From assembly GCF_001054325.1 (NCBI RefSeq), contig NZ_JVVM01000016.1, positions 1 through 64,000 of the forward strand: DNA of 64,000 nt, in the 5' to 3' direction. How positions within the stretch are numbered: the first letter of the stretch is position 1; every line of letters starts with the position of its first letter. Below the pieces are notes generated by a model, which was not told the origin of the DNA, ran no database searches, and saw only the letters and a program-made list of their open reading frames with translations. Made by a program: the position numbers and the translations under genes. This DNA comes from Corynebacterium vitaeruminis. Its GTDB lineage: Bacteria; Actinomycetota; Actinomycetes; Mycobacteriales; Mycobacteriaceae. Below, one piece after another: positions 3,302 through 40,771 of this stretch.

Positions 3302-3994
3302 CTACTGCGCCGACTTGGTTGCCGAATGCAGCGCTGCGATGCCGAAAGTGAGGTTCTGCCACCCGGCATCTTCCCAGCCCGAGGCATTGATATCGCGGGC
3401 GAGCTGCGGCTGATTTGGCCAGGCGCGAATCGACTCCGCCAAGTACACGTAGGCCTCCGGGTTCGACGAGACGACCTTGGCGATCTGCGGCAACGCCCGC
3501 ATCAGGTATTCCTTGTAGAAGGTGCTGAACACCGGCACCACGGGGGTGGAGAACTCACAGACTGTCAGCTGGCCACCGGGCTTGGTCACGCGAGCTAGTT
3601 CGGCAAGGCCCGCTTTGTAGTCCACAATGTTGCGCAGACCGAAGCTGATGGTCACCGCGTCGAAAGTGTTGTCCGGGAATGGCAGCTTCATACCATCACC
3701 GCAGACCTTGGGAACATCGCGGTGCGCACCGGCCTTGAGCATGCCGCGGGAGAAGTCACAGGCAACGACGTATGCGCCGGACTTCGCCAACTCCACTGAG
3801 GAAACAGCCGTACCGGCGGCCAGGTCGAGAACCTTCTGGCCAGGCTGCAGGTTCAGGCGCTTTGCCGTGCGGACGCGCCAGTAGTGGTCAATACCACCGG
3901 TGAGCACGGTATTGGTGATGTCGTAATTCTTCCCTACACCGTCGAACATCGAGGCGACTTCGCTGGGATTTTTCGTTAAATCAGCCCTAGACAC
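3302..3994 (-). CDS. menG: Demethylmenaquinone methyltransferase
   Basis: Class I SAM-dependent methyltransferase of the UbiE/MenG family, 230 residues, performing the last ring methylation of menaquinone synthesis. Visible marks are [13 protein letters not shown] near the N terminus, the SAM-binding LDLAAGTA motif, and the FGLRNIVDY segment typical of UbiE. The GTG at 3994 is chosen because it gives [10 protein letters not shown], the usual family N terminus; the longer ATG start at 4060 would add 22 basic residues overlapping mgtA. The stop of mgtA is 10 bp upstream, so the two are probably co-transcribed. Confidence 0.9.
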
Positions 3995-4004
3995 GCTGTC
4001 CAGA

Positions 4005-5213
4005 TTACGCGACCGACTTCTGACGCGTAGCAACGCCCGCGTGGGAGGCGTTCGTGGCATCCGCTGCGACCTTGCTGGAAGTCTCGGCCGCGGAGACTCC
4101 TGAGACCTCCTCGTAGTGGCGAACCAGGTCAGCGCACAGCGCTCCCCAGGTGCGCTCTGTCACGGTGTCGCGGCAGCGGTTGCGCAGCTGCTTGCGAGCC
4201 AGCTCATCATCGACGAGCAGCAGCTTATCAACAGCGGCCGACAGGTCGCGAGTGAAAGTCTTCGGCTCCAGCAGATGGCCGTTGACGTCGTTGGTAATCA
4301 AGTCCCGCGGACCGCCTGCGTTCGGAGCGATGGCCGGCACACCAGAGGCGTGGGCTTCCTGGACGGCTTGGCAAAAGGTTTCAAAGTCACCGGTGTGGAC
4401 GAACACATCCAGGCTGGCGAAAGCGGCTGCCAACTTATCACCAGTGAGTTGTCCGGTGAAGACGGCATTCGGCATCAGCTTCTTCAGCTTCGGCATCTCC
4501 GGGCCGTTACCGACAATGACCACCTGGATATCATCGCGTCCGTTCAGCGCCGCCAGACGCTCAACCGACTTCTCCGCCGCCAGCCTGCCGACATAACCAA
4601 CAATCGGTTTGCCCTCCGGACTCCACTGCTTCCTGAGCTCTTCACTGCGCTTTGTCGGAGTGAAGCGAACCGCATCAACACCGCGACCCCAGCGATAGAT
4701 GTCACGAATCTTGTGATCCTGCAGGTCCTCAATAGTCGGCGAGGACGGCGCCAGCGTTCGTGCGCAGGAGTTGTGAATCACGCGCGTCCACAACCATGCT
4801 GCCGTGGAGAGCCCCGCCAACTTGTAGTTCTTGGCAAAACCCGCCACATCGGTCTGATAGATAGCGACAGCCGGGATACCCAGTGCCTTGGCAGTCAGCG
4901 CGCCCGCACCACCGAGAACAAATGGTGAGGCCAGGTGCACAACATCCGGCTTAAACCGAGTCAGCGCCGAAGCCACCCTGCGGTTCGGCACACCAATCGG
5001 TAGCGAATCAATCAGTGGCACCATCACAGTGGGCACGCGCTCAATGCGGTAGTCGCAGTAGAACTCTGCCTCTTCCTGCCCGTCCCGAGCACCCGGCGCA
5101 ATCACCAGCGCCTCGTGCCCCTCACGGCGTAAATGTTCCAACACCCGCAACACGGAGTTTGTCACTCCATTGATATTGGGTAAGAAGCTTTCAGCAATGA
5201 TGGCAACGCGCAT
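4005..5213 (-). CDS. mgtA: GDP-mannose-dependent alpha-mannosyltransferase MgtA
   Basis: A 402-residue GT4-family retaining glycosyltransferase. The N terminus [21 protein letters not shown] and the C-terminal [20 protein letters not shown] with its E-x7-E-type nucleotide-sugar signature are typical. Its place between menG and the DUF3592/menD genes equals Rv0557 (MgtA) and Corynebacterium glutamicum NCgl0452, which mannosylate a glucuronosyl-diacylglycerol anchor for lipomannan. The C-terminal tail is Ala/Ser/Thr-rich and variable. A PimB-like specificity cannot be excluded from sequence alone. It lies 4 bp downstream of the DUF3592 gene. Confidence 0.8.
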
Positions 5214-5217
5214 GGTG

Positions 5218-5709
5218 CTAGTTTTCCATCTCGTCGGAAAGCGAAAGTGACCCTCCGTTTACCTTTTGGGGATCTCTTTGTAAACGACGGGTAGCGCGCA
5301 TCGACAACCACCACAGCGGCGTGACAACAATGAACGCAACTACAGCGATACTGGTCGCCGGGAGAAGTGACAGCGTCCATGTGCGCCCGGCGACACGGAC
5401 GACGTTGGGATCAGTGCGGTCGTATTCGACGCGGACGCGCTGGCCTTCCTCAAGCCCGACGGGATATAGCAAGCCGGATGGCGGCGACTGAAAATCACCA
5501 TTCTCATCGACGAAATCAACCGTGGTGCGAAGAACCTCAACCGAGCGCACATCCGCTACGGACTGCCCCATATTCGACTCGATATTGCGGTCATTGATGA
5601 AGCAGCCAACCACAATAGCCAAGCACGACAACAGCAGGCAGATCATTACAAAGAGCAGTACCTGCCGAAGGAAGCGCGGCCAATTGGCCAGGGCAGTTTT
5701 CCACTGCAT
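5218..5709 (-). CDS. DUF3592 membrane protein
   Basis: A 163-residue protein with two membrane segments (about residues 14-38 and 113-137) flanking an extracytoplasmic stretch with the DUF3592 pattern, including YPVGLEEGQRVRVEYDRTDPNVVRV. The corresponding mycobacterial gene (Rv0556) also sits between menD and mgtA. No enzymatic motif is visible and the function is unknown. Tight spacing on both sides (64 bp to menD, 4 bp to mgtA) suggests a menD - DUF3592 - mgtA - menG transcript. Confidence 0.75.
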   Translation of the reverse strand: MQWKTALANWPRFLRQVLLFVMICLLLSCLAIVVGCFINDRNIESNMGQSVADVRSVEVLRTTVDFVDENGDFQSPPSGLLYPVGLEEGQRVRVEYDRTDPNVVRVAGRTWTLSLLPATSIAVVAFIVVTPLWWLSMRATRRLQRDPQKVNGGSLSLSDEMEN

Positions 5710-5755
5710 GGCGGTCGCGACCTCCTTATGCTGTCTCTGGTTGGATGTTGGTAGT

Positions 5756-5785
5756 CAGCTAGTGCTTGTCCAGCTAGTGCTTGTC
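5756..5785 (+). repeat. 15 bp tandem duplication across the menD stop
   Basis: CAGCTAGTGCTTGTC occurs twice head to tail (5756-5770 and 5771-5785). On the coding strand each copy contains the codons for Leu-Asp-Lys-His-stop. The second copy therefore lies just beyond the used TAG and repeats the protein end and its stop codon. Confidence 0.9.
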
Positions 5786-7690
5786 CAGCACTCCAATCTC
5801 CGCATTGTATGCCAGCTTGTGATGCAACTGCCTACGCGTCTCGCGCGTGGTCGCCACCTCGATGACGCGGATGCCATCGACATCGGTATCCGGGTGCAGT
5901 TGCGCGAGCAGGTCTGGGAGACGGTCAACACGCACGTGTTCGACCCCGTAGGCCTGGCAGATCCCCTCAAAGTCCACATCCTGCGGCGTGCCGAAGATGC
6001 GCTCGAAACTTCCTCGCAGAGCCGGGCTGCCCGCCTCCAGCGTCTCGAAGATACCGCCACCGGCATCGTTGGCCACCACGATGGTGAGGTTTTCCGGCCT
6101 CGGCTCCAGCGGCCCAATCGCCAACGCTGCGGAGTCGTGCTGGAAAGTCAGGTCCCCCATCAGCGCAATCGTGCGCGGTGGTCGGATTTCGTCGGCATAC
6201 TCGCGGTCGGATGCCAGCGCAATACCGATTGCTGTCGCCACCGTGCCGTCGATACCCGCAGCACCCCGTCCCGCATACGTGCTCACCCCAGGGAAAGGCA
6301 GGCCCGTGTACGACGCATCGCGCACCGGGTTCGACGCACCCAGCACCACATTGTCACCCGTGCGCAGGCTGTCCGTCAGCGCTGCCGCCACATGGAATCC
6401 GGTCAGCGGCTCCTCCGCCTCGATCGACTCGGCGAGCGTCTTCCGCACGGACTTCACCGCCAACTCACTGGCTGCCTCACAGATTTTCGTCCACTGCGGG
6501 TCCTGCTCCCCCACAGTCTGCACATGCTTTACGACGGCCCTTGCGTTCGCCGTCACATCCGGGAACTCCACCCCATAGCCGTGGTTTTCCGCATCCGAGA
6601 CGACCGTCAGCTCGATGTCCGGATTGGCCAGCAGCTTCGAGATACCTCGGTGCAGCGTCGGCCGCCCTACCAACACAATCTGCTCCGGCGGAATCTGCGC
6701 GAAAGTACCTGCCGCAAGCGGGTGAACTGGGTACGCCGGCGCATACGCATTCGGCTCCGCGATAGTTGGCAGATCCTCCAGCTCTGGCAGATGTGGGGCA
6801 TTCGAGCCCGCGATCACGAGTGTGCGGCGGCTGATGTCAATTGTGGCTGTGGTGGCCGCGGTGGCCGGGCTGGTTGCGGTGACCGAGTTGGTTGCAATGG
6901 CAGCCGCACCGACGTTGTTACTGGTAGTAGGCGCAATCGTGGTCCAGGGGCCGCCGTCGGCGCGGCCCTCGGGGATGTCGGCGACGGAGTCGTCGTCAGG
7001 CACAAGCGGTTCGACAAAACGAACATTGAGGTGGCCGGCGCCGGATGCCATGGCGGCGACGACGCGGTCGATGCGAGCACGAATCTGCGCGGCGGTGGCC
7101 TTCGTGACCGGGGCGGTGCCGTCGAGATCGAACTCGACTACGGAGGCATCGGCGAACAGGCGGTCCTGGACGATAGTCTGATTCGCACCGGTGCCGCGGT
7201 AGTGTGCGGGGCGGTCAGCGGTCAGTGCCAGCAGCGGAATACCCGACGCGGTGGCTTCCACCATGGCGGGCACGAGGTTCGCCACTGCTGTGCCGGACGT
7301 TGTAATTACCGGGGTCACCTTGCGGGTGCGCGATGCCAGGCCCAGGGCGAGGAAGGCGGCGGAGCGTTCATCGACACGCACATGGAGGCGCACCTTCGCC
7401 GCATCGGCGGCCTGAACCAGGGCGCGCGCCAGCGGGGCCGACCGGGAACCCGGGCACACCACGGCATCGACCATGCCAAGACGCAGCAGCTCATCGACGA
7501 TGAGACCCGCTACCACTGCGGATGGGGCTGCGGGAGTTGCAGGGGCCGCGGTGGATTGGGACGCCGGGGTTTTGGCTGCAGCGTCGGTTGCCGAGGCTGG
7601 GGTACCAGCATCGGTGGTGGCGGCATTGGTGATGTTGGCGCCCTGAGCGTGCGAAGTCTGGGAGGTGTCCTGGTTGTCGTTCACACTCAA
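5774..7690 (-). CDS. menD: SEPHCHC synthase MenD
   Basis: A 638-residue thiamine-diphosphate enzyme that joins 2-oxoglutarate-derived succinic semialdehyde to isochorismate, the first committed step of menaquinone synthesis. The N-terminal PYR domain shows VCPGSRSAPLA and VRVDERSAAFLALG (the activating glutamate); the C-terminal domain has the ThDP/Mg motif ALMGDLTFQHDSAAL and later VVANDAGGGIFE. It is longer than usual because of an Ala/Thr-rich N-terminal stretch of about 50 residues with no family counterpart. The start codon is TTG (7688-7690). A GTG shortly downstream (SVN) would change little; the true start could be nearer residue 55, just before the conserved core. Confidence 0.93.
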   Translation of the reverse strand: MSVNDNQDTSQTSHAQGANITNAATTDAGTPASATDAAAKTPASQSTAAPATPAAPSAVVAGLIVDELLRLGMVDAVVCPGSRSAPLARALVQAADAAKVRLHVRVDERSAAFLALGLASRTRKVTPVITTSGTAVANLVPAMVEATASGIPLLALTADRPAHYRGTGANQTIVQDRLFADASVVEFDLDGTAPVTKATAAQIRARIDRVVAAMASGAGHLNVRFVEPLVPDDDSVADIPEGRADGGPWTTIAPTTSNNVGAAAIATNSVTATSPATAATTATIDISRRTLVIAGSNAPHLPELEDLPTIAEPNAYAPAYPVHPLAAGTFAQIPPEQIVLVGRPTLHRGISKLLANPDIELTVVSDAENHGYGVEFPDVTANARAVVKHVQTVGEQDPQWTKICEAASELAVKSVRKTLAESIEAEEPLTGFHVAAALTDSLRTGDNVVLGASNPVRDASYTGLPFPGVSTYAGRGAAGIDGTVATAIGIALASDREYADEIRPPRTIALMGDLTFQHDSAALAIGPLEPRPENLTIVVANDAGGGIFETLEAGSPALRGSFERIFGTPQDVDFEGICQAYGVEHVRVDRLPDLLAQLHPDTDVDGIRVIEVATTRETRRQLHHKLAYNAEIGVLDKH

Positions 7691-7726
7691 TAGGCTACTT
7701 GTCTGGTCAGATATCGGACTTGTTGG

Positions 7727-7801
7727 GAGTTACTGACCCCGTTTATGACAGTTTGGAGCCGTTTTTCGAACTCAAAGTGTCATAAACGGGGTCAGTAACT
7801 C
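7727..7801. repeat. Perfect 24 bp inverted repeat, copy A
   Basis: Arms 7727-7750 and 7778-7801 are perfectly complementary over 24 bp and separated by a 27-nt loop. The inner end of the arm reads GTTTATGACA. It lies between the menC stop and the menD start, both on the minus strand. There is no T-run after either arm, so it is not a standard terminator. Its geometry is nearly the same as copy D at 62767-62839 (23-27-23). Confidence 0.9.
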
Positions 7802-7868
7802 TGGGTGTTCCGAGGGTTGATGCAGGTGGCGAGCAGCTACAGGTGGGATTAGACCGCCAAGTGCGCCA

Positions 7869-8885
7869 CTACAGGTAGGCATACGCCGCGCGGAGGCGGT
7901 CGAACCACCAATCGCGGCGGGATCCCGACGCAGCGAGCTCAGCCAGGCGGGAAAGGTCGGGCGCGGGGTTGGTGACGGGCAAACGGCCATCGATGAGCGG
8001 CCGGGGCTCGATGACGTCCTCAATAAACAGCGACGACGTGGCCAAACCCGCTGCGTTTGGCACCGGTTGCAGCTCGGTCACAGGCAGGGCCGCCGCCGTG
8101 AACAAACCGGCGGCCATGCCAACACCTGTATCCAAGGCGCTGGCGACGGTCACCTTCATCTCCAGCTCCTCGGCCAACCGAAGCAAACGGCGTGGCCCGC
8201 CGAGCGGCGCGACCTTCATTACGCCCACGTCAGCCGCCTGTTCGCGCGCAACCAAATACGGATCCTCAGCTTTGCGGATCGACTCATCGGCAGCAATCGG
8301 GCAAAACTCCCCCACTGCGTCGCGGACCGCGCGGAGCTCGGCGACAGTCGCAACAGGCTGCTCCATGTACTCCAGCGGACCCAACTCATGAGCGGCGCGG
8401 ATGGCCTGCTCCACCGACCAGCCACGATTCGCATCCACCCGCACCACAGGTTCATAGCCATAGGCTTCAGCCACCGCGGTACGGACGGCCGCTACGCGCT
8501 CGATGTCGTCGTTAAGCGATTGGCCACTCTCTGCGACCTTGACCTTGAACGTGCGGCACCCGGGGTAGCGCCCCACGACCTCCGGCACCTGCTCGGGCGC
8601 GACGGCGGGGATGGTGGCGTTGACCTCGACAAACTCGCGCTTCGGGGTGGGTAGGCCGACGTAGGCGCATTCGATAGCCGAACGCAACCATGCGGAAGCC
8701 TCCCGAGCCTCGTACTCCAGGAAGGGAGCGAACTCGCCCCAGGTAACGGGGCCGTCGATGAGAAGTGCTTCGCGGGTGGTGACGCCACGGAACTTCACAG
8801 CCATGGGCAGAGCCACGACGTGGGCGCGGTCGAGGATGTCGTCGATCGATGGAAGCGGGACGTTAGGCGCAGCGGACACAGACAT
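7869..8885 (-). CDS. menC: o-Succinylbenzoate synthase
   Basis: A 338-residue enolase-superfamily enzyme that dehydrates SHCHC to o-succinylbenzoate. The catalytic KVKV lysines, the metal ligands Asp (VRVDANRG), Glu (YMEQPV) and Asp (IAADES), and the second catalytic lysine in GVMKVAPLGG are all present. The ATG at 8885 gives MSVSAAPNVP, a normal family start; upstream in-frame ATGs would run into menB. It is divergent from menB with only a few dozen bases between the starts. A long perfect inverted repeat follows the stop before menD. Confidence 0.9.
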   Translation of the reverse strand: MSVSAAPNVPLPSIDDILDRAHVVALPMAVKFRGVTTREALLIDGPVTWGEFAPFLEYEAREASAWLRSAIECAYVGLPTPKREFVEVNATIPAVAPEQVPEVVGRYPGCRTFKVKVAESGQSLNDDIERVAAVRTAVAEAYGYEPVVRVDANRGWSVEQAIRAAHELGPLEYMEQPVATVAELRAVRDAVGEFCPIAADESIRKAEDPYLVAREQAADVGVMKVAPLGGPRRLLRLAEELEMKVTVASALDTGVGMAAGLFTAAALPVTELQPVPNAAGLATSSLFIEDVIEPRPLIDGRLPVTNPAPDLSRLAELAASGSRRDWWFDRLRAAYAYL

Positions 8886-8919
8886 ACCCCTCATGCTAGA
8901 GACCTTTATGCTGGAAGCC

Positions 8920-9888
8920 ATGACTGATACCGCGAAGTACTCGACCGATAACCCCTTCCGCCCTGAGCAGTGGAAGACGGTTGATGGTTTTGAGGATTTG
9001 ACCGACATCACCTACCACCGCCACGTCGGCGAGGGCCGCGAAAACGGCATTGTGCGCATTGCTTTTGATCGCCCGGAGGTTCGTAACGCGTTCCGCCCGC
9101 ACACTGTCGATGAGCTCTACCGCGCGCTCGACCACGCGCGTCGCACCCCGGATGTCGGCGTTGTGCTGCTGACCGGCAACGGTCCGAGCACCAAGGACGG
9201 TGGCTGGGCATTCTGTTCGGGTGGTGACCAGCGCATTCGTGGTCGTTCCGGCTACCAGTACGCAACGTCACACGAGCATGACGACGCCACCGCGGACGCA
9301 TCCACCATCGATACTGCGCGCGCCAAGGTCGAGGGAGGTCGCCTGCACATCCTGGAGGTGCAGCGCCTGATCCGCACCATGCCGAAGGTTGTTATTGCCG
9401 TGGTCAACGGTTGGGCCGCAGGTGGCGGACACTCCCTGCATGTGGTGTGTGACCTGACACTGGCATCGCGCCAAGAGGCCCGCTTTAAGCAGACCGACGC
9501 TGACGTAGGATCTTTCGATGCCGGCTATGGCTCGGCCTACCTGGCGAAGCAGGTTGGTCAGAAGTTTGCCCGCGAGATTTTCTTCCTCGGCCGCTCCTAC
9601 GACGCTGAGACCATGCACCGCATGGGCGCCGTCAACGAAGTCGCCGACCACGCTGAGCTGGAAGATGTCGCGGTCGAGTGGGGCCGCATGATCAACGGCA
9701 AGTCCCCGACGGCGCAGCGCATGCTGAAGTTCGCTTTCAACCTGACCGATGACGGACTGATGGGCCAGCAGGTCTTCGCGGGCGAGGCCACTCGCCTGGC
9801 GTACATGACCGACGAGGCCGTCGAGGGCAAGGAAGCGTTCTTGGAAAAGCGCGACCCGAACTGGGATGAGTTCCCGTTCTATTACTAG
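8920..9888 (+). CDS. menB: 1,4-Dihydroxy-2-naphthoyl-CoA synthase
   Basis: Crotonase-fold enzyme of 322 residues that closes the second ring of the naphthoquinone. Typical are FDRPEVRNAFRPHTVDEL, the oxyanion-hole segments WAFCSGGDQRIRG and GWAAGGGHSLH, the catalytic SFDAGYGSAYLA, and the C-terminal WDEFPFYY. The ATG at 8920 (MTDTAKYSTDNPF) matches corynebacterial MenB N termini. Alternatives at 8908 and 8893 are in frame but less like the family. The promoter must lie within or very near the 5' end of menC. Confidence 0.93.
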   Translation: MTDTAKYSTDNPFRPEQWKTVDGFEDLTDITYHRHVGEGRENGIVRIAFDRPEVRNAFRPHTVDELYRALDHARRTPDVGVVLLTGNGPSTKDGGWAFCSGGDQRIRGRSGYQYATSHEHDDATADASTIDTARAKVEGGRLHILEVQRLIRTMPKVVIAVVNGWAAGGGHSLHVVCDLTLASRQEARFKQTDADVGSFDAGYGSAYLAKQVGQKFAREIFFLGRSYDAETMHRMGAVNEVADHAELEDVAVEWGRMINGKSPTAQRMLKFAFNLTDDGLMGQQVFAGEATRLAYMTDEAVEGKEAFLEKRDPNWDEFPFYY

Positions 9889-29424: not shown

Positions 29425-30435
29425 TTAGTTCAGGCCAGCGTAGGAGTGCAGACCCGAGACCACCATATTGATGAAGAAGAGGTTGAACACCATGGTCGCA
29501 AAACCGAAGATGTTAATCCACGCGGCCTTAGTGTTGCGCCAGCCAGAGGTTGCGCGAGCGTGCAGGTACAGGGCGTAGACGATCCAGGAGATCAGAGCCG
29601 TGGTCTCCTTCGGATCCCAGCCCCAGTAACGCCCCCATGCGGACTCCGCCCAGATAGCGCCCAGCACAATGCCCAGGCCGAACAGCGGGAAGGACCAAAT
29701 AGCGGTGCGGTAGGCAATCGCATCCAGCTTCTGCGCGTCCGGTAGCGGCGAGACCAGCTTGCCCAGGAAACCCTTTTCGCTGCCCTTGCGGTTGTACATC
29801 CGCAGCATGTAGAGAATCGACGCAACACCCGAAATCAGTGCAATACTGCAGCCGATAGCGATGATGGACACGTGAATCGGCAGCCAAATCGACTGCAGTG
29901 CCGGCACCACCGGTGCAGCCTCAGCGTAGAGCTTCCTACCGCCGTAGAACATCAGAGCCAGAATTGGAGCCAGCATCCACGGCCAGAACACACGCATGGT
30001 CTCGCGGTGCAGGACACCCGCACCAACGACCATCGCAAACAGAATGGAGACCGAAATGTACTCGTAGAGGTTGCCCCACGGGAAACGCTGCACAGCCAGG
30101 CCACGCAGTAGCACCGATGCAAAGTGCACGGCTACACCGACGTAAATCAGCATTTCCGCCACAACGCCAAGCTTCTGTGTCAGCGCCTGATTCTTAACGA
30201 CGCTTGCCGATGCCTTCGTCTCCGACTCCACCGAGTTAGCGACACTAGCGGTGGTAGCTCCATCACCAGCACCAGCGGCTACCAGCTCGCGTTCCGCAAC
30301 CTGGCTCTTAGCTTCAGCGACCGCGATACGACGGCTGTAGTAGGCAATGGAAACAACAAAGGCCACAAGATAAAAGGCGAAGGCCGTGAAGTACGACCAG
30401 TCCGAAAACTGCGCCAGTGTCTTATTGACGAGCAT
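29425..30435 (-). CDS. ccsB: System II cytochrome c maturation protein CcsB/ResC
   Basis: A 336-residue polytopic membrane protein of the heme handling protein family. The conserved tryptophan-rich segment WGRYWGWDPKETTALISW near residue 270 binds haem at the outer face. About eight membrane helices are visible, with an Ala/Ser-rich loop near residues 45-75. With ResB it carries haem across the membrane and attaches it to apocytochrome c. It is 173 bp downstream of resB. Confidence 0.92.
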   Translation of the reverse strand: MLVNKTLAQFSDWSYFTAFAFYLVAFVVSIAYYSRRIAVAEAKSQVAERELVAAGAGDGATTASVANSVESETKASASVVKNQALTQKLGVVAEMLIYVGVAVHFASVLLRGLAVQRFPWGNLYEYISVSILFAMVVGAGVLHRETMRVFWPWMLAPILALMFYGGRKLYAEAAPVVPALQSIWLPIHVSIIAIGCSIALISGVASILYMLRMYNRKGSEKGFLGKLVSPLPDAQKLDAIAYRTAIWSFPLFGLGIVLGAIWAESAWGRYWGWDPKETTALISWIVYALYLHARATSGWRNTKAAWINIFGFATMVFNLFFINMVVSGLHSYAGLN

Positions 30436-30608
30436 GTACTTGGCTCCAAAGTGTGGAATTAGCGGAATACTTCTTCAAACCCTAGTACTAAAGCGGGGCT
30501 AAGCAAAAGGGGGCCGGACACGGAGGACACGAAAGAGTTGCGTGGAGGTGCAATCTTCACCCCCGCGCATTCACCCCCTGCAGTGGATGAATCGGCCTTA
30601 GCGGCTAG

Positions 30609-32327
30609 TTAGTTGTTGGCTCTCTTGCCTTTACTGTCCTCGTCATCACTACCGTTGTCCGCCGCATCAATGTCCACAGTGTCCTGGTCGGCAGAGTCGG
30701 CGTCATCGCTGTCGCGTTCCAGGATGTCATCCACGATGTACTGGAACTCCTCGCCCCAACCGGCCTTGTCCGTGCGAGCCAGGCCACCGAACTCAACGCG
30801 AGTGCGGCCATCTTCCAGCGGGAACATGCGCACCCACACGCGCCGACGCTTAATACCCAGCGACATCACCATGCCCGCCAGTGCAGCCACAGTCGCCACC
30901 AGCACCCAGAACTGCGTGGGATCGTGCGAGATCTGCAAGTTGACAAATTCCTTCGCGCCGAGGAATTCAATCTTGGTGCCGTCGGCAAGCTCGGTGGATT
31001 CGCCCTGCTTGAGGTTGACGCGGGCTTCCTTGGCTAGCTGACCCGAGTGCATCAGGTCGCGGTCGAGGGAGAACAGGCCCTGCGAGCGACCAGTGTCCAG
31101 GCCCGCGTCGCCACGGTAGATATCGACAGCCACGGCCGGGTCTTGCATAGCCGGGTAAGAGGACTGCAGCAGAGCACCCTTTTCACCGGTGAACTCGGCC
31201 GTCGGAGCGAACAGGCCCTCGATGGCGATCTGGTTCTGGCGGCGCTCGAACAGGTCCGGGTACATGCCTGCCGGCGGATCGAAGCGCAGCGCGCCTGAAG
31301 ACAGGAAGAAGGTCGGGTCATCCGGGCGGAACTGAACAATCGAGGTACGCGACTCACCATTCGGCCAGGTCACCTTGAATGCCGGTGCAAAGCCGTGCCC
31401 CTGCAGATACACACGGTCACCGGCGATGCGCAGAGGGTGGTTGACCTGCAGAGTGGTCTTCTCCCACTCATCGACCGGCTTACGCATATCCTCCTCTTCT
31501 GCGAATCGGATGTGCGAGGTAAACATCTTGGCCTGGCCGTTCGGCAGGTAATCGGCAGCAAAGTCCTCGACCTGAATACAGAACGGGTTCAGAGTCGTAC
31601 CGTCGAAGGTGTTGCCCGAGCGCAGCGAGTCATAGTTCGCCGCAGCGGTGTTACAGAACGGAACGCCCACCGCGCTGTTGACGTTGTCATCAGAAATTTC
31701 GGTGCCGGTGTTGGTCAGCAAAATGACCTGGCCCTCGTAATAAATCATGCGGCCCAAGCCGACGATGATGATCAGCAGCGCAATGCCCAGGTGGAATACC
31801 AAGTTGCCAAGCTCACGCAGGTAGCCCTTCTCCGCGGAAAAGGAGCGTGCCCCGGCGCGGTCTTCATCTGCTGGGGTTTCGGTCAACGCCCACTTGTTCA
31901 GGCGCTCACGCACCCGCTCAGAAACTTCGTCCGCGGAAGCATCGACCACGGCTTCGTCGTGAAGCGGAAGACGCGCCAACCGTTTCGGCGCCCTAGCCGG
32001 TGGCGTCTTCATGGCCTTGTAGTGGTCGATGGTGCGCGGAATAATGCAGCCGACCAGGGAAATCAGTAGCAATGCCACGATGGCGACGAACCAGACGGAC
32101 GAGAAGACATCGAAAAGCTGCAGCTTATCCATGATCTCGGCGGTCTTGCCGTTGGCGGCAAGATACTGGTCGACCTTGTCCTTATTCAGCGAGCGCTGCG
32201 GCAACAGGGCGCCGGGAACCGCTGCGAAAGCGAGGATGAACAGCAGAATCAGCGCCGTACGCATGCTGGTCAACCAGTTCCAGACCTGCTGGAAGGGCTG
32301 TCGTACCTTATTCCAATTCACCGACAT
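30609..32327 (-). CDS. resB: Cytochrome c maturation protein ResB
   Basis: A 572-residue ResB-family protein with three N-terminal membrane helices (including SMRTALILLFILAFAAVPGALLPQRSLN), a further helix near residue 170, a large extracytoplasmic domain, and a last helix near residue 480. It ends in a strongly acidic tail (DSDDADSADQDTVDID) of about 40 residues. Together with CcsB it forms the System II haem exporter/ligase. It starts 15 bp after ccdA. Confidence 0.92.
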   Translation of the reverse strand: MSVNWNKVRQPFQQVWNWLTSMRTALILLFILAFAAVPGALLPQRSLNKDKVDQYLAANGKTAEIMDKLQLFDVFSSVWFVAIVALLLISLVGCIIPRTIDHYKAMKTPPARAPKRLARLPLHDEAVVDASADEVSERVRERLNKWALTETPADEDRAGARSFSAEKGYLRELGNLVFHLGIALLIIIVGLGRMIYYEGQVILLTNTGTEISDDNVNSAVGVPFCNTAAANYDSLRSGNTFDGTTLNPFCIQVEDFAADYLPNGQAKMFTSHIRFAEEEDMRKPVDEWEKTTLQVNHPLRIAGDRVYLQGHGFAPAFKVTWPNGESRTSIVQFRPDDPTFFLSSGALRFDPPAGMYPDLFERRQNQIAIEGLFAPTAEFTGEKGALLQSSYPAMQDPAVAVDIYRGDAGLDTGRSQGLFSLDRDLMHSGQLAKEARVNLKQGESTELADGTKIEFLGAKEFVNLQISHDPTQFWVLVATVAALAGMVMSLGIKRRRVWVRMFPLEDGRTRVEFGGLARTDKAGWGEEFQYIVDDILERDSDDADSADQDTVDIDAADNGSDDEDSKGKRANN

Positions 32328-32342
32328 TGAAAAAATCTTTCA

Positions 32343-33218
32343 TTAAATTGGCGTTACCGTATCAGTAATAAAAGCGGCCTGAACCCAGGCAACAAAAACA
32401 TCCCACAGTCCTGTGACCAGGGCAATTCCCACCAGCACCAGCGCCACACCACCGATGATCTGAATGGTTCGCGAGTGCTTGCGCAGAAAATCCACTCCCC
32501 GCATCGCACGTGCCGACCCCAGCGCCACCAAAATGAACGGCAGCCCCAGCCCCAGGCAGTAGGCGATAATAAGTGCCACTCCTCTGGCCGCGGTCATGCC
32601 CTGCGTACCTGCGGACACCGAAATAATTGCAGTCAGTGTCGGCCCCAGACACGGCGTCCACCCCAGCGCGAACACTGCGCCGAGTAGTGGCGCTCCCAGC
32701 CACGTGGTCCAGCGCTTCGGCGTCATGCGGGTGTCCTTCTGCAGGGCTGGCACCATGCCCATGAAGGCGAGTCCCATCACGATGGTCACCACGCCACCGA
32801 CAATCGTCAGCGTGCGCGCCTGCAAACGCAATGTGGACACGAGCCCGAAAATCGAGGCCGACCCCAGCACGAAAATGACAGTAAAGCCCAACACGAACAG
32901 CAACGCAGCCAGGCCGACGCGGGCAGTTGCGGAACGCTTGCCACGGCCTCCATCGCTGTCACGCTTATCGACGGCGGTTGCGTCCGCAATGTCCGTCGTC
33001 ACGCCATTGCCCTGCGCCCCCGATGCTCCGGAAATACCGGTGAGATATGAGACATAGCCGGGCACGAGCGGGATGACGCACGGGCTGGCGAAGGAGACCA
33101 GACCGGCCAGCGCAGCGGCGAGTAACCCCAACAGAATGGGGCCGCCGGTGGCGGCATCGGCGAACTGTTGGCCGATGCCATCGGCAAGAAAGGTCGTGTC
33201 CATGGCAAGAGTTCCCAT
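32343..33218 (-). CDS. ccdA: Thiol-disulfide transporter CcdA
   Basis: A 291-residue DsbD-core membrane protein with six or more helices. The two redox cysteines appear in SFASPCVIPLVPGY and LGWTPCLGPTLTAI. It passes electrons from cytoplasmic thioredoxin to the outside, where the TlpA/ResA protein keeps the CXXCH motif of apocytochrome c reduced. A charged Asp/Arg/Lys loop (about residues 75-95) separates the first helices. The tlpA gene ends 8 bp upstream, indicating a tight operon. Confidence 0.92.
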   Translation of the reverse strand: MGTLAMDTTFLADGIGQQFADAATGGPILLGLLAAALAGLVSFASPCVIPLVPGYVSYLTGISGASGAQGNGVTTDIADATAVDKRDSDGGRGKRSATARVGLAALLFVLGFTVIFVLGSASIFGLVSTLRLQARTLTIVGGVVTIVMGLAFMGMVPALQKDTRMTPKRWTTWLGAPLLGAVFALGWTPCLGPTLTAIISVSAGTQGMTAARGVALIIAYCLGLGLPFILVALGSARAMRGVDFLRKHSRTIQIIGGVALVLVGIALVTGLWDVFVAWVQAAFITDTVTPI

Positions 33219-33226
33219 GCTGGGGC

Positions 33227-33853
33227 CTAGCCCTCCGCCTTCACTTCATTGACGGCCTTCATCAGCATGGTGTGGTCGACCTCGCGGAGGAAAACCTTGG
33301 CCGGGCGGTGCTGCTTGTCCAGGATGATGGTCGTCGGAATCACCGATGCCGGGATACCGCCGAGCGCGGCGGCGTTGACGAATGCCGGGTCATAGATGGA
33401 CGGGTAAGTAATACCGTTGTCCTTCACAAAGTCGACGGGGGCTTGGCGGACGTTGTCGCGGACGTTGATGCCGAGGACAGTGCCGATGCCTTCCTCTTCC
33501 ATCTGTTCCTGGACGTACTGCAGGTCATCGGATTCAGAGCGACACGGTGCACACCACTGTCCCCATGCATTGAGGACCACAATCTGATCCTTGAAGTCAT
33601 CGAGGGAGATCTTCTTGTCGTCGTCCTCCAGAGAAGGACCGAAGACATTGCCGACCGGCTTGCGCTCCTCCGGTGCGTAATCAATGATCTGCTGACCACC
33701 CGGAGAAACGAACTCGAACTGACCGCCGACGGCAACGGCGTCGTGTCCCACTGACTCTCCGGGGTTACATGCTGCGAGCGACAGAGACAGAGTTGCTGCC
33801 GCTAGCGTTGCTGCAATTCGGGACGATGAGACCTTGGCCACCTGGGGTGCCAC
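33227..33853 (-). CDS. TlpA/ResA-like thiol-disulfide reductase lipoprotein
   Basis: A 208-residue thioredoxin-fold protein. The signal peptide ends in a lipobox, LSLAACNPG (Cys near residue 29), so it should be anchored as a lipoprotein on the outer side of the membrane. The active site is WCAPCR near residue 107, and a cis-Pro lies in GIPASVIPTTIIL. It matches the redox partner of CcdA in cytochrome c maturation; mycobacterial Rv0526 occupies the same place. Confidence 0.9.
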   Translation of the reverse strand: MAPQVAKVSSSRIAATLAAATLSLSLAACNPGESVGHDAVAVGGQFEFVSPGGQQIIDYAPEERKPVGNVFGPSLEDDDKKISLDDFKDQIVVLNAWGQWCAPCRSESDDLQYVQEQMEEEGIGTVLGINVRDNVRQAPVDFVKDNGITYPSIYDPAFVNAAALGGIPASVIPTTIILDKQHRPAKVFLREVDHTMLMKAVNEVKAEG

Positions 33854-33896
33854 CTTCCGGGGGTCAGTGAAACTTCAACAAAACTATTTATTCACC

Positions 33897-34607
33897 TTAC
33901 AGGTGACCGGCTGGCTCACTGTAGCGCACGTCGACAATGGTGTCGCCGACGAAGACAAAGGAGGTCACACTAGCCAGATCACACTGTCTGGTTGCCGGGT
34001 TGTGAGCCAGCTTCAAGTACCGCGCACGACGCTGAGCGGCGATGATGCACAGCTGGTGGGTCACCAGAACTGCTTCTGCGCCCTCGGCGGCCTCACGGGC
34101 GCGCTCGATGGCATAGAACATGCGATCCGCGATCTCCTCGTACGGTTCGCCCCAACTCGGCACACTCGGACGACGCAGCCGTGGCCAGTACTTCGGATTC
34201 CACAGTGCAGAGTCAATGCCCTTGATGTGCAAGCCCTCAAAGGTGTTGCCAGCCTCCAGGAGATCTTCATCCAGGATTGGTTTCGTACCAATTACCTCGG
34301 TGAATGGCTTAGAGGTCTCCTGCGTGCGCTGCAGCGGAGAGCAGGCGAAGTAGCGGATGCCGTGGCCTTCGAAGGACGAGGCCGTGGCTGCTGCCTGGCG
34401 CTGACCGCGCTCAGACAGGTGCCAGCCGGGCAGGCGTCCATAGAGAATTTTATCCGGGTTATAAACCTCGCCGTGGCGGACGAGATGTACAACCGTGGTC
34501 TTGGCGTGCTTTGTTGCACGCTTAGACGTCTGATTCTCCGGCTGCGTCGGCTGCGGTTCCTGCTGTGCTGCCTGCTGCGCGGCCTGCGAATTGGTCTTGT
34601 TCGACAC
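33897..34607 (-). CDS. Histidine phosphatase family protein
   Basis: A 236-residue phosphoglycerate-mutase-like phosphatase. The phospho-accepting VHLVRHGEVYNP is near residue 42, and the second catalytic histidine is in VLVTHQLCI. A Gln-rich N-terminal stretch of about 35 residues precedes the fold. It corresponds to Rv0525, between hemL and the tlpA gene. The substrate is unknown; it ends 43 bp from tlpA and starts 7 bp after hemL. Confidence 0.82.
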   Translation of the reverse strand: MSNKTNSQAAQQAAQQEPQPTQPENQTSKRATKHAKTTVVHLVRHGEVYNPDKILYGRLPGWHLSERGQRQAAATASSFEGHGIRYFACSPLQRTQETSKPFTEVIGTKPILDEDLLEAGNTFEGLHIKGIDSALWNPKYWPRLRRPSVPSWGEPYEEIADRMFYAIERAREAAEGAEAVLVTHQLCIIAAQRRARYLKLAHNPATRQCDLASVTSFVFVGDTIVDVRYSEPAGHL

Positions 34608-34614: not shown

Positions 34615-35961
34615 CTACTCCGGCTTGGCAGCTGCCGCCGCCTCTGCCGCACGGGCTGCCGCACGCTCGATAATCTCGAAGTCAGCGTCGGTGAGTGCGG
34701 CGGAGACGAACCAGGTTTCGTAGCAGGAAGCCGGCGGGTAGACACCATTGGCCAGCAGGGCATGGAAGAAGGCGGGGTAGCGGAAAGTATCCGCTGCCTG
34801 CATCTGCTCAAAGTTGTGGCCCTCGCCCTCGGCGAAGCGCGGCGAGAGCATAGTGCCCGCGCGCTGAATATGGTGGGCAACACCCTGCTTGGTCAGGGCA
34901 TCGGACAGAATCGTGGCCAGGCGATCTGCGTTGGCCGCAACGGTGTCATAGACATCCTTCGTGGCGTTTTCCAGGTTGGCCAGGCCAGCTGCCATAGCGA
35001 CCGGGTTACCGGAGAGCGTGCCTGCCTGGTACACCGGACCGTTCGGGGCCAGGTATTCCATGACATCGCGGCGACCGCCGAAGGCGGCTGCGGGGAGACC
35101 ACCGGAGACGACCTTGCCGAAGGTGGTCAGGTCACCGGCCACACCATCAATGCCGTACCAGCCGTTGTAAGAAGTACGGAAGCCGGTCATAACCTCGTCG
35201 AGAATCAGCAGCGCGCCGTCGGCGTGGCAGATTTCCTTCAGCTTCGCGTTGAAGTTGTCCTGCGGTGCGACGGTGCCCATGTTGCCCGCTGCCGCCTCGG
35301 TGATAACACAGGCAATTTCGCCCGGGTTCTCAGCGAATGCGGCCTTGACGGCCTCATTGTCGTTGTACGGAACGACAATGGTGTCGGCGGCCGATGCACC
35401 GGTGACACCCGGCGAATCCGGCAGACCAAAAGTAGCGACACCAGAACCGGCCGATGCCAGCAGCGCATCCACGTGACCGTGGTAACAGCCGGCGAACTTG
35501 ATGATTTTGGAACGGCCAGTGAAACCGCGAGCCAGACGAACTGCGGACATGGTGGCCTCAGTGCCCGAGTTGACCAGACGCACCTCATCCACCGACGTGC
35601 GCTCAACGATGTGACGAGCCAGGTCGGTCTCGGCCGTCGTCGGAGCGCCGAAAGACAGACCGCGGGTGGCGGCACTCTGAACGGCCTCCACCACTGCCGG
35701 GTGCGCGTGGCCCAGAATCATCGGACCCCAGGAGCAGACCAGGTCCACGTATTCATTGCCATCAACATCCACGAGACGAGAGCCCGTGGCGTGGTCAATG
35801 AAACGTGGGGTGCCACCGACGGAGCCGAAGGCGCGCACCGGCGAGTTCACGCCACCCGGCGTAACCGCCTGAGCCTGCGTAAAGAACTCTGCCGAACGAT
35901 CGGTGAGCTCGACGTTTTCTGGGACATGAGGAGCATTAATGTCTTGAGTCACGGTGACCAT
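34615..35961 (-). CDS. hemL: Glutamate-1-semialdehyde 2,1-aminomutase
   Basis: A 448-residue class III PLP aminotransferase making 5-aminolevulinate, the second step of the C5 haem pathway after HemA. Visible are [30 protein letters not shown], the PLP-binding [11 protein letters not shown], and the Schiff-base lysine in [19 protein letters not shown] near residue 280. The C-terminal Ala/Lys-rich tail is variable. Confidence 0.95.
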
Positions 35962-35996
35962 CGTAGACGGCCACCCGGATCAAGGGCTACCCTGTC

Positions 35997-38588
35997 CTAC
36001 CAACGCCCCAGCTTCACCCTGAACAGATGCTTGCGGCGAGACGACACTCGACGGGAACGCCAATCAATCCACAGGCTGGAGAAAACCATCAGTAGCGATG
36101 CCAACAGCGGATGAATCAGACCGGTCATGCCCAGCAGGATGACCGCAACGTTGTAAAACCACGCAAAGTAGATATTGGAGTCCATCATTCGCGCCACAGC
36201 GCGAGCGATTTCAATGGCCTCCGGAATCGACAACACGTTGTTGCGCAGTGCCACAACATCTGCGTAATCGACATCAAGGTCCTGCTTACCTTCGGTGTTG
36301 TCCATCAACACACCCACATCAGCGGCACGCAGACAGTCTCGGACATCCTTGTCACCAACCATCACGACTGTCTCGCCGTCACTGTGAACTGAACGCACCG
36401 CAATGGCCTTGCGGGGAGCAATAATGCCCGCGAATACGCGCGAGATATTCAGTCGATCCGCAAAACGACGAGCCACTGGGTACGGATCTCGCGTGATCAT
36501 CATGGTGTCCACGCCCATGTCCTCCAGCTGGTCAATGCTCTCAACCGCATCGGGCTTGATGTCCTCACCAATGGTGATGACACCACGGACCTTGCCACGC
36601 CACGACACCACCATCGGAGTACCGCCACTGAGCGCAGCCACGGCCATTTTCTCGCTGAGTGCCGTGAGATCACGCGGACGCCAAACACGCGCTTCGACAA
36701 AGCGCATCTCCAGGTTGTCGTCGGAGTCCTTCACCGGAATTTCAACCTGGCCCACGAACGCACCGTCATCGGCAATAGCGACATGCACCGTCTCAATCCA
36801 GTGCGGCACCTCGCCACCACCGGAGCCCGCATCGCGGGAAACACGGCACGCACGCACGATAGCTGCCGATGCCGGGTGGTTGCTCTCCATCATGAGAGCG
36901 CCTGCCACGCGCAGAACCAAATCCGGGTTTTCATTACGTTCGGCGGCGACATCGAGCACGTGGGTGTCGCCCTCGGTCAGCGTTCCAACGCGGTTAAAGA
37001 TCACCACATCGGCGGTAGCCAACTTGCGGAAAGTCTCGTTGCCACGAATCAAAATTCCGTTATTGGCACCGGCCAGAATGCCGATGCGCTGCACGGTCGA
37101 CGTTGACATTGCCAACGCCACCGGTGCGATGCCGGAAAGCATAGCCAGCGCCACCGCGAGAGCACCGCTCATTGTGCCCGTCGCCAGCCACCAACCGCAA
37201 AATGCCACGCCCGCCAACGACAGCGCCCACGGCACCAGCTCTGATGCCGAGCGCACTGCGGTCTGGTGCATCACCGTTTCTTCTCGAACCGCCTGACGCA
37301 GCCAGCGCGCCATCGATGACGCCCGGGTCTTAGAACCGGTGCGCTCCACGCGCACCTTGAGCTCCGAATCCAGGTTGATCGCGCCGGCCCAAACTTTGGA
37401 GTTGACCTTGACCTTCTGTGGCTCAACGCCGATACCGAGTAGCTGCGCATCCATCGTGGACGCACCACCGATGACCGAACCATCGACCGGAATCACCGAG
37501 TTTGATGGAACCACGATGTCATCGCCGATATTGAGCTCCGCGACCGTCACTTCCACCCGTTTTGGCTCTGCGGACTTGGCGCTCTTGCGCACCACCGTCA
37601 CGTTTCGCTCAGCTGGAATCCGCAGGTTGCGCATGATCTGTCCAGTGCGCACCTTGTTGTAGCGCGTAAACATGCGGCCTGTTAGCAGCAGTACGGTCAG
37701 GCCGCAGGCAACGTCGAAGAACACCTCCGCCGAGGCACTCTCTCGATAATTGAAGGCAAACCACGTGGGCGCAGTGGTATATCCAATCTGCCCTGCCTGC
37801 CCGAAGATAAGCTGCACCAGCGACCACAACCACGCCAGCAGAATTGCAATGGAGCTCGCCCCATCCAGCGCCGACATCCGCCGACGCAGGGACGCCGCCA
37901 TTGCGCGGTGGAACGGCCAGCCGCCCCACCACACCACAATCGTGGTCAGAACAATGCACATCCACTGCCAGCCCGGGAACTGCCAGTTGACGTTCAACGA
38001 CGTCGCCAGCACCGGAATCGACAAGAGCAGACTTCCCCAAAATCGCTGCTTGGTCACCAGTTCACGCGCTGTGAACAGTACCTCCGCACCGCCGCCGTTT
38101 TGGCGCAAGGCCGCTTCACGACGGCGAATGCGCTCTTCCTCATTCTGCTGTGCGGCAGCCGGAACAGCGGGACGGCGGTGCTGCGACACATCCAGCCGAG
38201 TTGCGCGACGTCTAAGCGTGCTGCGCGTGAGATATGAATCGACTCCAATTTCGCGGAGAGCTTCGATGAACTGATTCGGATCGATGGCATCGGGTGCGGT
38301 AATCCACGCACGACCGGGCTTGTACACGACAGACGCCGTCACTCCCGGAAAGGATTCCAAAACATGCTCAGCACGCTCAGCGCTCTCGGCATTTTCCATG
38401 TTTTCCAGGATGAGCGCGAAAGCTGTGTTGGATTGGCCTCTGCGGTGTGCAAGCCGCTGATGAGCACTTTCATCCTCGATATTTTGACGGCTTCGTGGCA
38501 ATGCCTTACGAGCTGCGACCTTGGCATCCACAATCGCTTGTTCAACGCGATTGTCCAGAGAGGTATCAAACTCACCGGTGTTACTCAT
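35997..38588 (-). CDS. Catalytically degenerate P1B-type ATPase homologue
   Basis: An 863-residue protein with the full layout of a metal-transporting P1B ATPase: an N-terminal HMA-like domain (about residues 55-115), some eight membrane helices, an actuator domain, and P and N domains (SNHPASAAIV retained). The residues needed for transport and phosphorylation are gone. The HMA lacks CxxC (ENMENAESAER), the TGE loop reads LGIG, the CPC metal site reads APV (488-490), the phosphorylated DKTGT is NRVGT (Asn532), and GDGxND is GDKDVRD. The frame is intact. It sits between hemL and hemB, so a non-catalytic role linked to haem or cytochrome biogenesis is possible but unproven. Confidence 0.85.
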   Translation of the reverse strand: MSNTGEFDTSLDNRVEQAIVDAKVAARKALPRSRQNIEDESAHQRLAHRRGQSNTAFALILENMENAESAERAEHVLESFPGVTASVVYKPGRAWITAPDAIDPNQFIEALREIGVDSYLTRSTLRRRATRLDVSQHRRPAVPAAAQQNEEERIRRREAALRQNGGGAEVLFTARELVTKQRFWGSLLLSIPVLATSLNVNWQFPGWQWMCIVLTTIVVWWGGWPFHRAMAASLRRRMSALDGASSIAILLAWLWSLVQLIFGQAGQIGYTTAPTWFAFNYRESASAEVFFDVACGLTVLLLTGRMFTRYNKVRTGQIMRNLRIPAERNVTVVRKSAKSAEPKRVEVTVAELNIGDDIVVPSNSVIPVDGSVIGGASTMDAQLLGIGVEPQKVKVNSKVWAGAINLDSELKVRVERTGSKTRASSMARWLRQAVREETVMHQTAVRSASELVPWALSLAGVAFCGWWLATGTMSGALAVALAMLSGIAPVALAMSTSTVQRIGILAGANNGILIRGNETFRKLATADVVIFNRVGTLTEGDTHVLDVAAERNENPDLVLRVAGALMMESNHPASAAIVRACRVSRDAGSGGGEVPHWIETVHVAIADDGAFVGQVEIPVKDSDDNLEMRFVEARVWRPRDLTALSEKMAVAALSGGTPMVVSWRGKVRGVITIGEDIKPDAVESIDQLEDMGVDTMMITRDPYPVARRFADRLNISRVFAGIIAPRKAIAVRSVHSDGETVVMVGDKDVRDCLRAADVGVLMDNTEGKQDLDVDYADVVALRNNVLSIPEAIEIARAVARMMDSNIYFAWFYNVAVILLGMTGLIHPLLASLLMVFSSLWIDWRSRRVSSRRKHLFRVKLGRW

Positions 38589-38607: not shown

Positions 38608-38988
38608 CTAATCCTGCGGCTGATTGGCGCGCGTGAGCGTTAATTCACGATAGAGCAACAGTAGTCCACATGCCATTACCAAGCTTGGCACAATAACCCA
38701 CACGGTCAGCGCGCCAGCCATAATGGCGAAAAACATGGCGAGAGCCGTGATAATCACCATGATGAGCAGGCAGTTCCGGGAAAGTTTGAACTCGGTGGCC
38801 GTCGGCAAGCAGCCACTGCCGATCAGCGAGCAGACCAGCGTCACGCTAGCAACGATGTAGATGTCGCGGCCAACGGCGGCGGGAGCCTGCGAGTAGTCGC
38901 CGGTGACCAGTATCAAGCTCAGGACAATCTGGGCGATGAGTGCGACGAAGAGCACCCACTGCCAGGGGCGACTCGGGAGGGACATCAT
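38608..38988 (-). CDS. Four-helix membrane protein, unknown
   Basis: A 126-residue hydrophobic protein with four likely helices (about residues 10-28, 42-62, 68-90 and 92-112) and short tails. No catalytic or metal motif is seen. It overlaps the upstream gene by 4 bp and precedes the degenerate ATPase gene by 19 bp, implying a hemB-to-hemL operon. Small membrane proteins downstream of hemB are also found in other actinobacteria (Rv0513 and corynebacterial equivalents); their role is unknown. Confidence 0.7.
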   Translation of the reverse strand: MMSLPSRPWQWVLFVALIAQIVLSLILVTGDYSQAPAAVGRDIYIVASVTLVCSLIGSGCLPTATEFKLSRNCLLIMVIITALAMFFAIMAGALTVWVIVPSLVMACGLLLLYRELTLTRANQPQD

Positions 38989-39620
38989 TGCTTGGACTCC
39001 TCGGACTGCTTGGGTTGTGGCTGATCAAGCTGCTGTTTCTGCTTTGAATCAGCGCCATGCTTCGAAGCCTTCGGCAGATGCGAATCCGAGGCGTGCGGAG
39101 TCCATGGCTTCGAGGGCCGCTGATGGTCGAAGTAGTCCTTGGACTCCTTCGACGCGGCCAGCACCAGACCAGCCACCGCGGCAGTGGCGGAGGCGATGCG
39201 CACGATTCCGCTGATGAGCACGAGAGATGCCGGCACCCCCGCTTCAGAAGCCGTAGACGAGAAGAAAGACATCAGCGCCGACAACGCCAGGTAAATCGAG
39301 CCGATGACCAGCACCGTGCGCGCACCCTCGCTGCCCTTGCGCATGCGCTCGATGATGGCGAAGAACGCGATGCAGATACCCATCGCGAAAAGGAAAGCGA
39401 TAACGATAGTCGCCTTCATGGCGGCATCGATTTGGCCCTCGCTGAAACCCGGGAAATTCTCCTTGGCGGTTTCGGGGCTAATCAGCATTTCCGGATGCAA
39501 CCAATAGGTCACCGTCGCCACTGCGGCAAGGAGCAGCTGCAACAGGGCCGTGACCCGCCACGCCTGCCTAGCGCCTTCGACCTGCTCGGGAATTGCGGGC
39601 TTCTTCTCTTCTTTAGTCAT
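38985..39620 (-). CDS. Membrane protein with Gln/Lys-rich tail, unknown
   Basis: A 211-residue protein with four helices between residues about 20 and 160, preceded by a charged N terminus (MTKEEKKPAIPEQVEGARQ). A hydrophilic tail rich in Gln, Lys and Ser follows (about residues 170-211). I do not recognise the family. It lies 45 bp after hemB and overlaps the following small membrane gene by 4 bp, so the two are probably translated together. Confidence 0.7.
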   Translation of the reverse strand: MTKEEKKPAIPEQVEGARQAWRVTALLQLLLAAVATVTYWLHPEMLISPETAKENFPGFSEGQIDAAMKATIVIAFLFAMGICIAFFAIIERMRKGSEGARTVLVIGSIYLALSALMSFFSSTASEAGVPASLVLISGIVRIASATAAVAGLVLAASKESKDYFDHQRPSKPWTPHASDSHLPKASKHGADSKQKQQLDQPQPKQSEESKQ

Positions 39621-39665: not shown

Positions 39666-40724
39666 TTAGAACTGGGCACGCAGCTTCTTCGCCAAGTCCA
39701 CCGCTGCGTAGGTCAAAATCTGCTCCGCACCGGCACGGCGAATACTCAGTACTGCTTCCATCATCGCAGCATCCAGGTCAATCCACCCGTTGGCGGCAGC
39801 GGCGTGAATCATCGCGTACTCACCGGAAACCTGGTAGGCGGCGACTGGCACCGGCGACATATCCGCAACCTCGCGCAGAATGTCCAGGTAGCTCATGGCC
39901 GGCTTGACCATCACCATGTCTGCGCCCTCGTCAACGTCGAGCTGCACTTCAAGCAGAGACTCACGACGGTTTGCCGGATCCTGCTGGTAGGTACGACGAT
40001 CGCCCTTAAGCGAGCTGCCCACGGCTTCACGGAATGGACCGTAGAAGGCGGAGGCGTACTTTGCCGAGTACGCCATGATGGAGACATCCTCATGACCAGC
40101 GGCGTCCAGGCCCTCGCGGATGGCGGCGATCTGACCGTCCATCATGCCCGATGGCGACACGATGTGCGCACCAGCATCGGCCTGAGCAACCGCCATCTTG
40201 ACGTAATTAATCAGCGTGCGGTCATTTTCAACGACCGTGTTGCCGAAACGGTCCGTTGCCAGAACACCACAGTGACCGTGATCGGTGAACTCATCCAGGC
40301 AAGTGTCGGCCATGATTAGAATGTCATCACCGAACTCGTCGCGGAGACGACGCAGAGCGCGGTTGAGAACGCCCTCCGGATTCCAGGACTCAGAGCCTTC
40401 ACCATCCTTATCCGCATCCAGCGGGACACCGAAGAGGTCAACCGCCGAGATACCTGCCTCGACAGCCTCTCGCACAGCCTCCACCAGGGAGTCCTCGGTG
40501 TGCTGAACTACTCCGGGGAGGGAGCTGATTGGCTTCGGCTCATCAATCCCATCCGCCACAAACATCGGCAGGATGAGGTTCTTCGGAGTCAGTGTCGTCT
40601 CCGCCGTCATCGCACGCATCACCGGGTTGGTGCGCAGCCTGCGCGGGCGACGAATCGGGATAGGAAATCCAAACTGGTCGAAATCGATTTCGCGGGATGA
40701 TTCAGAAGCTCCAGATGTAGTCAT
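39666..40724 (-). CDS. hemB: Delta-aminolevulinic acid dehydratase
   Basis: A 352-residue porphobilinogen synthase. The metal-site segment reads DTCLDEFTDHGHCG with two cysteines and an Asp where zinc enzymes have the middle Cys, so a magnesium-type or mixed site is possible. The catalytic lysines are in YSAKYASAFYGPFR and VKPAMSYLDI. ATG 40724 (MTTSGASES) is chosen over one six codons upstream. It lies 47 bp after the hemD-type gene. Confidence 0.95.
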   Translation of the reverse strand: MTTSGASESSREIDFDQFGFPIPIRRPRRLRTNPVMRAMTAETTLTPKNLILPMFVADGIDEPKPISSLPGVVQHTEDSLVEAVREAVEAGISAVDLFGVPLDADKDGEGSESWNPEGVLNRALRRLRDEFGDDILIMADTCLDEFTDHGHCGVLATDRFGNTVVENDRTLINYVKMAVAQADAGAHIVSPSGMMDGQIAAIREGLDAAGHEDVSIMAYSAKYASAFYGPFREAVGSSLKGDRRTYQQDPANRRESLLEVQLDVDEGADMVMVKPAMSYLDILREVADMSPVPVAAYQVSGEYAMIHAAAANGWIDLDAAMMEAVLSIRRAGAEQILTYAAVDLAKKLRAQF

Positions 40725-40771
40725 AAAGACAACCTTAATCAAAACGCGAACTCGCCCCGATTCGCCCCGGC

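Follow-up and report, generated by a model that had tools for sequence, protein, structure and literature searches.

What does a P1B-type ATPase stripped of its transport residues do in the middle of a haem locus? The question arises from a minus-strand gene in the window, the 64,000-nucleotide stretch of Corynebacterium vitaeruminis DNA analysed here. Its frame runs from an ATG to a stop codon (38588..35997) and encodes 863 amino acids with no internal stop, so that the intact 863-codon frame reported in the preliminary description of 35997..38588 is borne out. The product, referred to below as the pseudo-ATPase, comprises a degenerate HMA-like domain (residues about 53–121), membrane helices, an A domain, a P/N head and two last helices.

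The gene lies in a row of minus-strand genes in the order hemB (porphobilinogen synthase, 39666..40742), memA (38985..39620), memB (38608..38988), pseudo-ATPase, hemL (glutamate-1-semialdehyde aminomutase, 34615..35961) and gpm (phosphoglycerate-mutase-like), followed by the cytochrome c maturation genes ccsX, ccdA, ccsB and ccsA, with gpm to ccsA together occupying 29425..34607. The identities of hemB, hemL, gpm, ccsX, ccdA, ccsB and ccsA were assigned from their sequences and are presumptive. The names memA and memB were coined here for two hydrophobic proteins of 211 and 126 amino acids, for which no Pfam family scored above the cut-off. Successive gaps from hemB to gpm measure 45, −4, 19, 35 and 7 bp, which places memB 19 bp upstream and hemL 35 bp downstream of the pseudo-ATPase. 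Judged from strand and spacing, the row from hemB to the ccs genes looks like a single operon. The arrangement around hemL varies between genomes: hemL directly follows the pseudo-ATPase in the window (34615–38588), hemE and hemY intervene at another orthologue locus (L049, 2477–4986), and hemL is 4–6 kb away at many others.

Pfam searches recognised an E1-E2_ATPase domain (PF00122, E = 5.4e-26) and a HAD hydrolase domain (E = 3e-12), and the HMA model stayed under the cut-off (E = 0.14). The nearest NCBIfam model was TIGR01525 (heavy-metal P-type ATPase), whose cut-off was missed; the general P-type ATPase model TIGR01494 alone was passed. All 22 pseudo-ATPase members of set A2, which excludes L148 with a stop within its stretch, match these models at E = 1e-10 or better. 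Since the general model accepts the pseudo-ATPase, annotation likely hides the family.

The AlphaFold model (mean pLDDT 78.5, pTM 0.65) begins with a ferredoxin-like fold at the place expected for an HMA domain. Among solved structures it is closest to copper P1B ATPases, with 7r0g in first place (Z 32.5, rmsd 3.2, 617 aligned residues). Homology and predicted fold thus place the protein in the P1B-type ATPase superfamily; the domain models, the predicted structure and the 7r0g match agree with the earlier statement that domain order and helices are retained. The P1B-1 copper ATPases of the CopA/CtpV type (7r0g, 3rfu) share with it the domain order, predicted fold, HMA-like start, PFHRA stretch, the Pro of the CPC site, and YN and M..S in the last helices. 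Unlike it, they possess the catalytic Asp, CxxC, CPC, TGES, TGD, GxGV and GDGxND, whereas the pseudo-ATPase carries invariant motifs of its own.

An orthologue was present in 119 of the 151 sampled Corynebacterium genomes; the remaining 32 were separated by score, and the best match, read in 30 of them, contained DKTGT each time. At 114 of the 119 loci hemB and/or hemL stood on the expected side and strand, no locus showed a contrary arrangement, and at five neither was seen in the fetched stretch. Six loci were flagged as not plainly full-length. Three of these had stops outside the gene proper, L063 reaches a contig end, L119 contains ambiguous bases, and L117, from a 77%-complete genome, is the only truly broken frame among the orthologues.

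We counted motifs in 117 aligned orthologues, leaving out L117 for its broken frame and L119 for its ambiguous bases, and in 97 canonical proteins found by similarity to the pseudo-ATPase or near hemB, which do not sample the P1B ATPases at random. DKTG at the phosphorylation site, the CPC-type membrane metal site, the HMA CxxC, TGD, GxGV and the GDGxND hinge each occurred in none of the 117 orthologues and in all 97 canonical proteins. The CxxC of the HMA domain is not regarded as universal among P1B ATPases. The string TGE survives in two orthologues, as TGER and TGET, vs 97 of 97 canonical proteins, and TGES in no orthologue. In the window, LLGIG stands in place of TGE, GDKDV in place of the hinge, and APV (residues 488–490, 37119..37127) in place of CPC. 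The former DKTGT loop reads FNRVGTL (residues 531–537, 36978..36998), with Asp replaced by Asn532 and Lys by Arg533, and the former TGDN loop reads MITRDPYPVARR (residues 697–708, 36465..36500), with Gly replaced by Arg700; these minus-strand coordinates were computed from the residue numbers. The letters DKTG do occur in L082, elsewhere in the protein than at the phosphorylation site.

The losses are accompanied by gains. NR.G and RD.Y.V occur in 117/117 orthologues vs 0/97 canonical proteins, and W.P in the N domain and a DVAC-type string in the second core helix in 115/117 each vs 0/97. L119, outside the count, reads NRVGAL in its second piece. Other ancestral features are retained: SxH of the HP motif (108/117 orthologues, 96/97 canonical), Lys727 (117/117, 97/97) and Tyr-Asn in the fifth core helix (114/117, 97/97), together with Asp701, Asp746 and Pro489. 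The preliminary description was therefore right about APV, about Asn532 in NRVGT and about the loss of CxxC, TGE and GDGxND, but its wording that every residue class needed for transport is replaced goes too far: the catalytic motifs are gone, and SxH, Lys727, Tyr-Asn, Asp701, Asp746 and Pro489 remain.

In the N domain, a Trp replaces a Gly that canonical relatives keep. The Gly-x-Gly stretch and that Gly presumably correspond to adenine-pocket positions of ATP7B; with the former lost in all 117 orthologues and the latter exchanged for Trp, it is doubtful whether the protein binds ATP. A ligand that bears phosphate could still be bound through the HP-motif His, Lys727, Asp701 and Asp746. From the motif pattern we infer that the protein no longer transports or turns over ATP.

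The gene is evidently under purifying selection. NG86 estimates of dN/dS were 0.014–0.142 in 21 of 22 orthologue pairs, and the remaining pair, with 53% identity, gave 0.357; the pairs were hand-picked, some share a member, and the ratios are rough in the several pairs with synonymous change near or above one per site. For hemL and hemB the values are of the same order, with the pseudo-ATPase above them in some pairs and below them in others. The preliminary description had proposed a maintained pseudo-transporter, and had reasoned that homologues retaining DKTGT and CPC at this locus would instead mark a recent decay in one strain. No such homologue was found among the 117, and recent decay in one strain is ruled out by motif losses fixed in all of them. 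Maintenance is strongly supported by these losses and by the purifying selection. Catalytic residues lost across orthologues that remain under purifying selection point to an old pseudoenzyme, which probably now serves a new function other than pumping.

The distribution of conservation suggests where that function lies. After thinning at 80% identity (69 pseudo and 54 canonical rows), residues 531–537 and 697–708, which make up the former active-site loops FNRxG and [ST]RDxYPVARR, rank at the 99.9th and 100th percentile among windows of equal length and belong to the most constrained parts of the pseudo-ATPase. The loop that was once TGES ranks at the 8th percentile, and the stretch that once held CxxC at the 29th. 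Domain levels, which are not on one scale and are to be read as a pattern only (the canonical rows span several orders, the pseudo rows one genus), were 0.63 in the pseudo rows vs 0.48 in the canonical rows for the N domain, 0.61 vs 0.89 for the last two helices, 0.61 vs 0.83 for the second core helix and 0.53 vs 0.74 for the A domain. Constraint thus appears to have left the transport path in favour of the cytosolic head.

The explanation we favour, with somewhat better than even confidence, is that a transport-dead P1B ATPase persists as a membrane protein with a structural or regulatory role in the haem/cytochrome c gene row. A P1B-type ATPase would have lost phosphorylation, metal transport and probably ATP binding before the sampled Corynebacterium species diverged, and would then have been retained in this capacity. 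The old helix bundle would hold the cytosolic P/N head at the membrane, and the head would now serve as a docking or ligand-sensing module for the tetrapyrrole or cytochrome assembly proteins encoded by its neighbours. A scaffold or regulator role in haem or cytochrome c assembly is the best reading of gene position and of the placement of conservation. The more specific scaffold or sensor for haem or metal that the preliminary description suggested derives from gene position and is tentative. A functional analogy is offered by HemX, a membrane protein of the hem operons of Bacillota (Bacillus subtilis, Staphylococcus aureus), which is reported to affect the level of the early enzyme HemA/GtrR (PMC10991733).

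The conserved loops are also compatible with a haem or tetrapyrrole carrier or sensor, in which a cationic P-domain pocket formed by Arg533, Arg700, Arg707 and Lys727 would hold propionate groups. We consider this reading unlikely. The position of the gene fits it, as do the invariance of Arg533, Arg700 and Lys727 (117/117), the occurrence of Arg707 in at least 95% of orthologues and the fact that the loops bearing these residues rank with the family's best-conserved stretches; however, no known haem-binding motif was recognised in the protein, and 32 of the 151 genomes manage without it. In a more speculative form, which we would give little weight, the phosphorylation pocket has become a predicted Arg/Lys-lined tetrapyrrole site, and the protein would be a pseudoenzyme anchored in the membrane, where it would sense the level of haem precursors or hand them over for cytochrome c maturation.

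Alternatively, the dead copy might pair or compete with a copper pump, so that an active P-type ATPase would have it as a regulatory or dominant-negative partner. P1B ATPases are generally regarded as acting as monomers, which argues against such pairing, as does the company of hem genes at 114 of 119 loci, and we regard this alternative as improbable. Possible partners exist, since five other proteins of the window's genome match E1-E2_ATPase, each with DKTGT. A copper connection is likewise consistent with this alternative: C. glutamicum cg0518, cg0519, cg0520, cg0522 and cg0524 (hemL to ccsB) are 3.6–4.6-fold up in copper excess (PMC3140484). The passage that lists these copper-induced genes names none between hemB and hemL, and this counts against the structural or regulatory role that we prefer.

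Residual transport, whether by a slow or non-phosphorylating transporter or through a passive channel, would require a rebuilt ligand path, for which Asp292, Cys295, Met834 and Glu842, each present in at least 90% of orthologues, are candidates; Cys295 and Glu842 are innovations compared with canonical enzymes, and the DVAC-type string is nearly invariant (115/117). Against this stand the missing catalytic Asp, TGES, GxGV and GDGxND, and the Trp at the N-domain position where canonical enzymes keep Gly (W.P in 115/117), and we judge continued transport quite improbable. A decaying pseudogene, to which the lost catalytic motifs and the absence of the gene at hemB in 32 of 151 genomes might point, is rejected on the open frames, only one of 119 being truly broken, on dN/dS well below 1 in all 22 pairs (at most 0.357) and on two new invariant motifs.

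In the open-licence literature, searches for this gene or for an inactive P-type ATPase turned up nothing on the gene, nor any precedent for a superfamily member that is dead yet retained in the greater part of a genus; the word ATPase is likewise absent from the main text of one DtxR/HrrA paper. The pseudo-ATPase offers a natural test of what the P-type ATPase fold does without pumping, and it adds an uncharacterised membrane component to the set of Corynebacterium genes for haem and cytochrome c.

The 32 genomes that lack the gene all possess hemB, mostly with hemE, hemY or hemL beside it, and in none of them did the stretch read beside hemB contain a pseudo or canonical ATPase match. The pseudo-ATPase is dispensable in some lineages; since hemB is kept without it, haem synthesis does not require it in every lineage. 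In 31 of these 32 genomes hemB is followed by a memA match, so memA is not tied to the pseudo-ATPase. In a midpoint-rooted hemB tree of 125 rows with all 32 absences, presence and absence change at least six times as drawn, only two of the changes being forced by well-supported forks; in an earlier hemB tree, with 20 of the 32 absences, carriers lie on both sides of the deepest drawn fork. Both trees exclude rows with fewer than 200 amino acids of hemB, including the closest relatives of the window's genome. Given carriers on both sides of that fork and several changes on the tree, the gene is probably ancestral in the genus and was lost more than once. The row nearest to the window's hemB, closer relatives having been left out for their partial hemB, belongs to a genome that has lost the pseudo-ATPase (G079; L250, 445–3706); there hemL lies about 1.1 kb after hemB, with no memA or memB match between them.

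No such pseudo-ATPase was found outside Corynebacterium among the order, class and family genomes and the contig-scan matches listed. Matches at E = 1e-94 or better occurred in 3 of 249 genomes of the order and 1 of 246 of the class, all Corynebacterium, in searches that scored three candidates per genome and could miss a distant pseudo copy. Within the family, matches from genera other than Corynebacterium start at 4.7e-93 at best, and the 21 with loci (L219–L239) keep DKTGT. Among the matches listed in the contig scan (at least 80 loci), 22 carry NR.G and RD.Y.V, all of them Corynebacterium, and 58 carry DKTGT. The nearest proteins read outside the genus are canonical, and the 18 pseudo rows in the tree form one side of a branch with SH-aLRT 100.

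Canonical P1B ATPases begin 2.3–2.7 kb downstream of hemB at six loci in two other genera of the same family (L270, L271, L273, L275, L276 and L277). Unlike the pseudo family, they keep GMTCASC, CPC, DKTGT, TGD and GDGVND. The full tree joins this hemB-linked group, the pseudo family and the long-branched row L288 with SH-aLRT 99; in a smaller tree without L288, the pseudo family and the hemB-linked group alone are not one clade in the best tree, and their union is not rejected (p-AU 0.164). The pseudo-family profile ranks the group 1, 4, 6, 14, 17, 58 and 62 of 96, and 10 of the 119 orthologues have their best BLAST hit in it, where the group as used includes L272 (both trees, profile and BLAST) and L274 (full tree), whose hemB is outside the fetched stretch. 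Origin from a haem-linked copper ATPase is an attractive, unproven possibility. The row L288 itself (G153, 3869–9108) comes from a 1.9-Mb genome of another genus and encodes a P1B ATPase about 1.9 kb from a phosphoglycerate-mutase-like gene; the hemB match of that genome spans only 81 amino acids, and L288 is perhaps the remnant of a lost hem locus.
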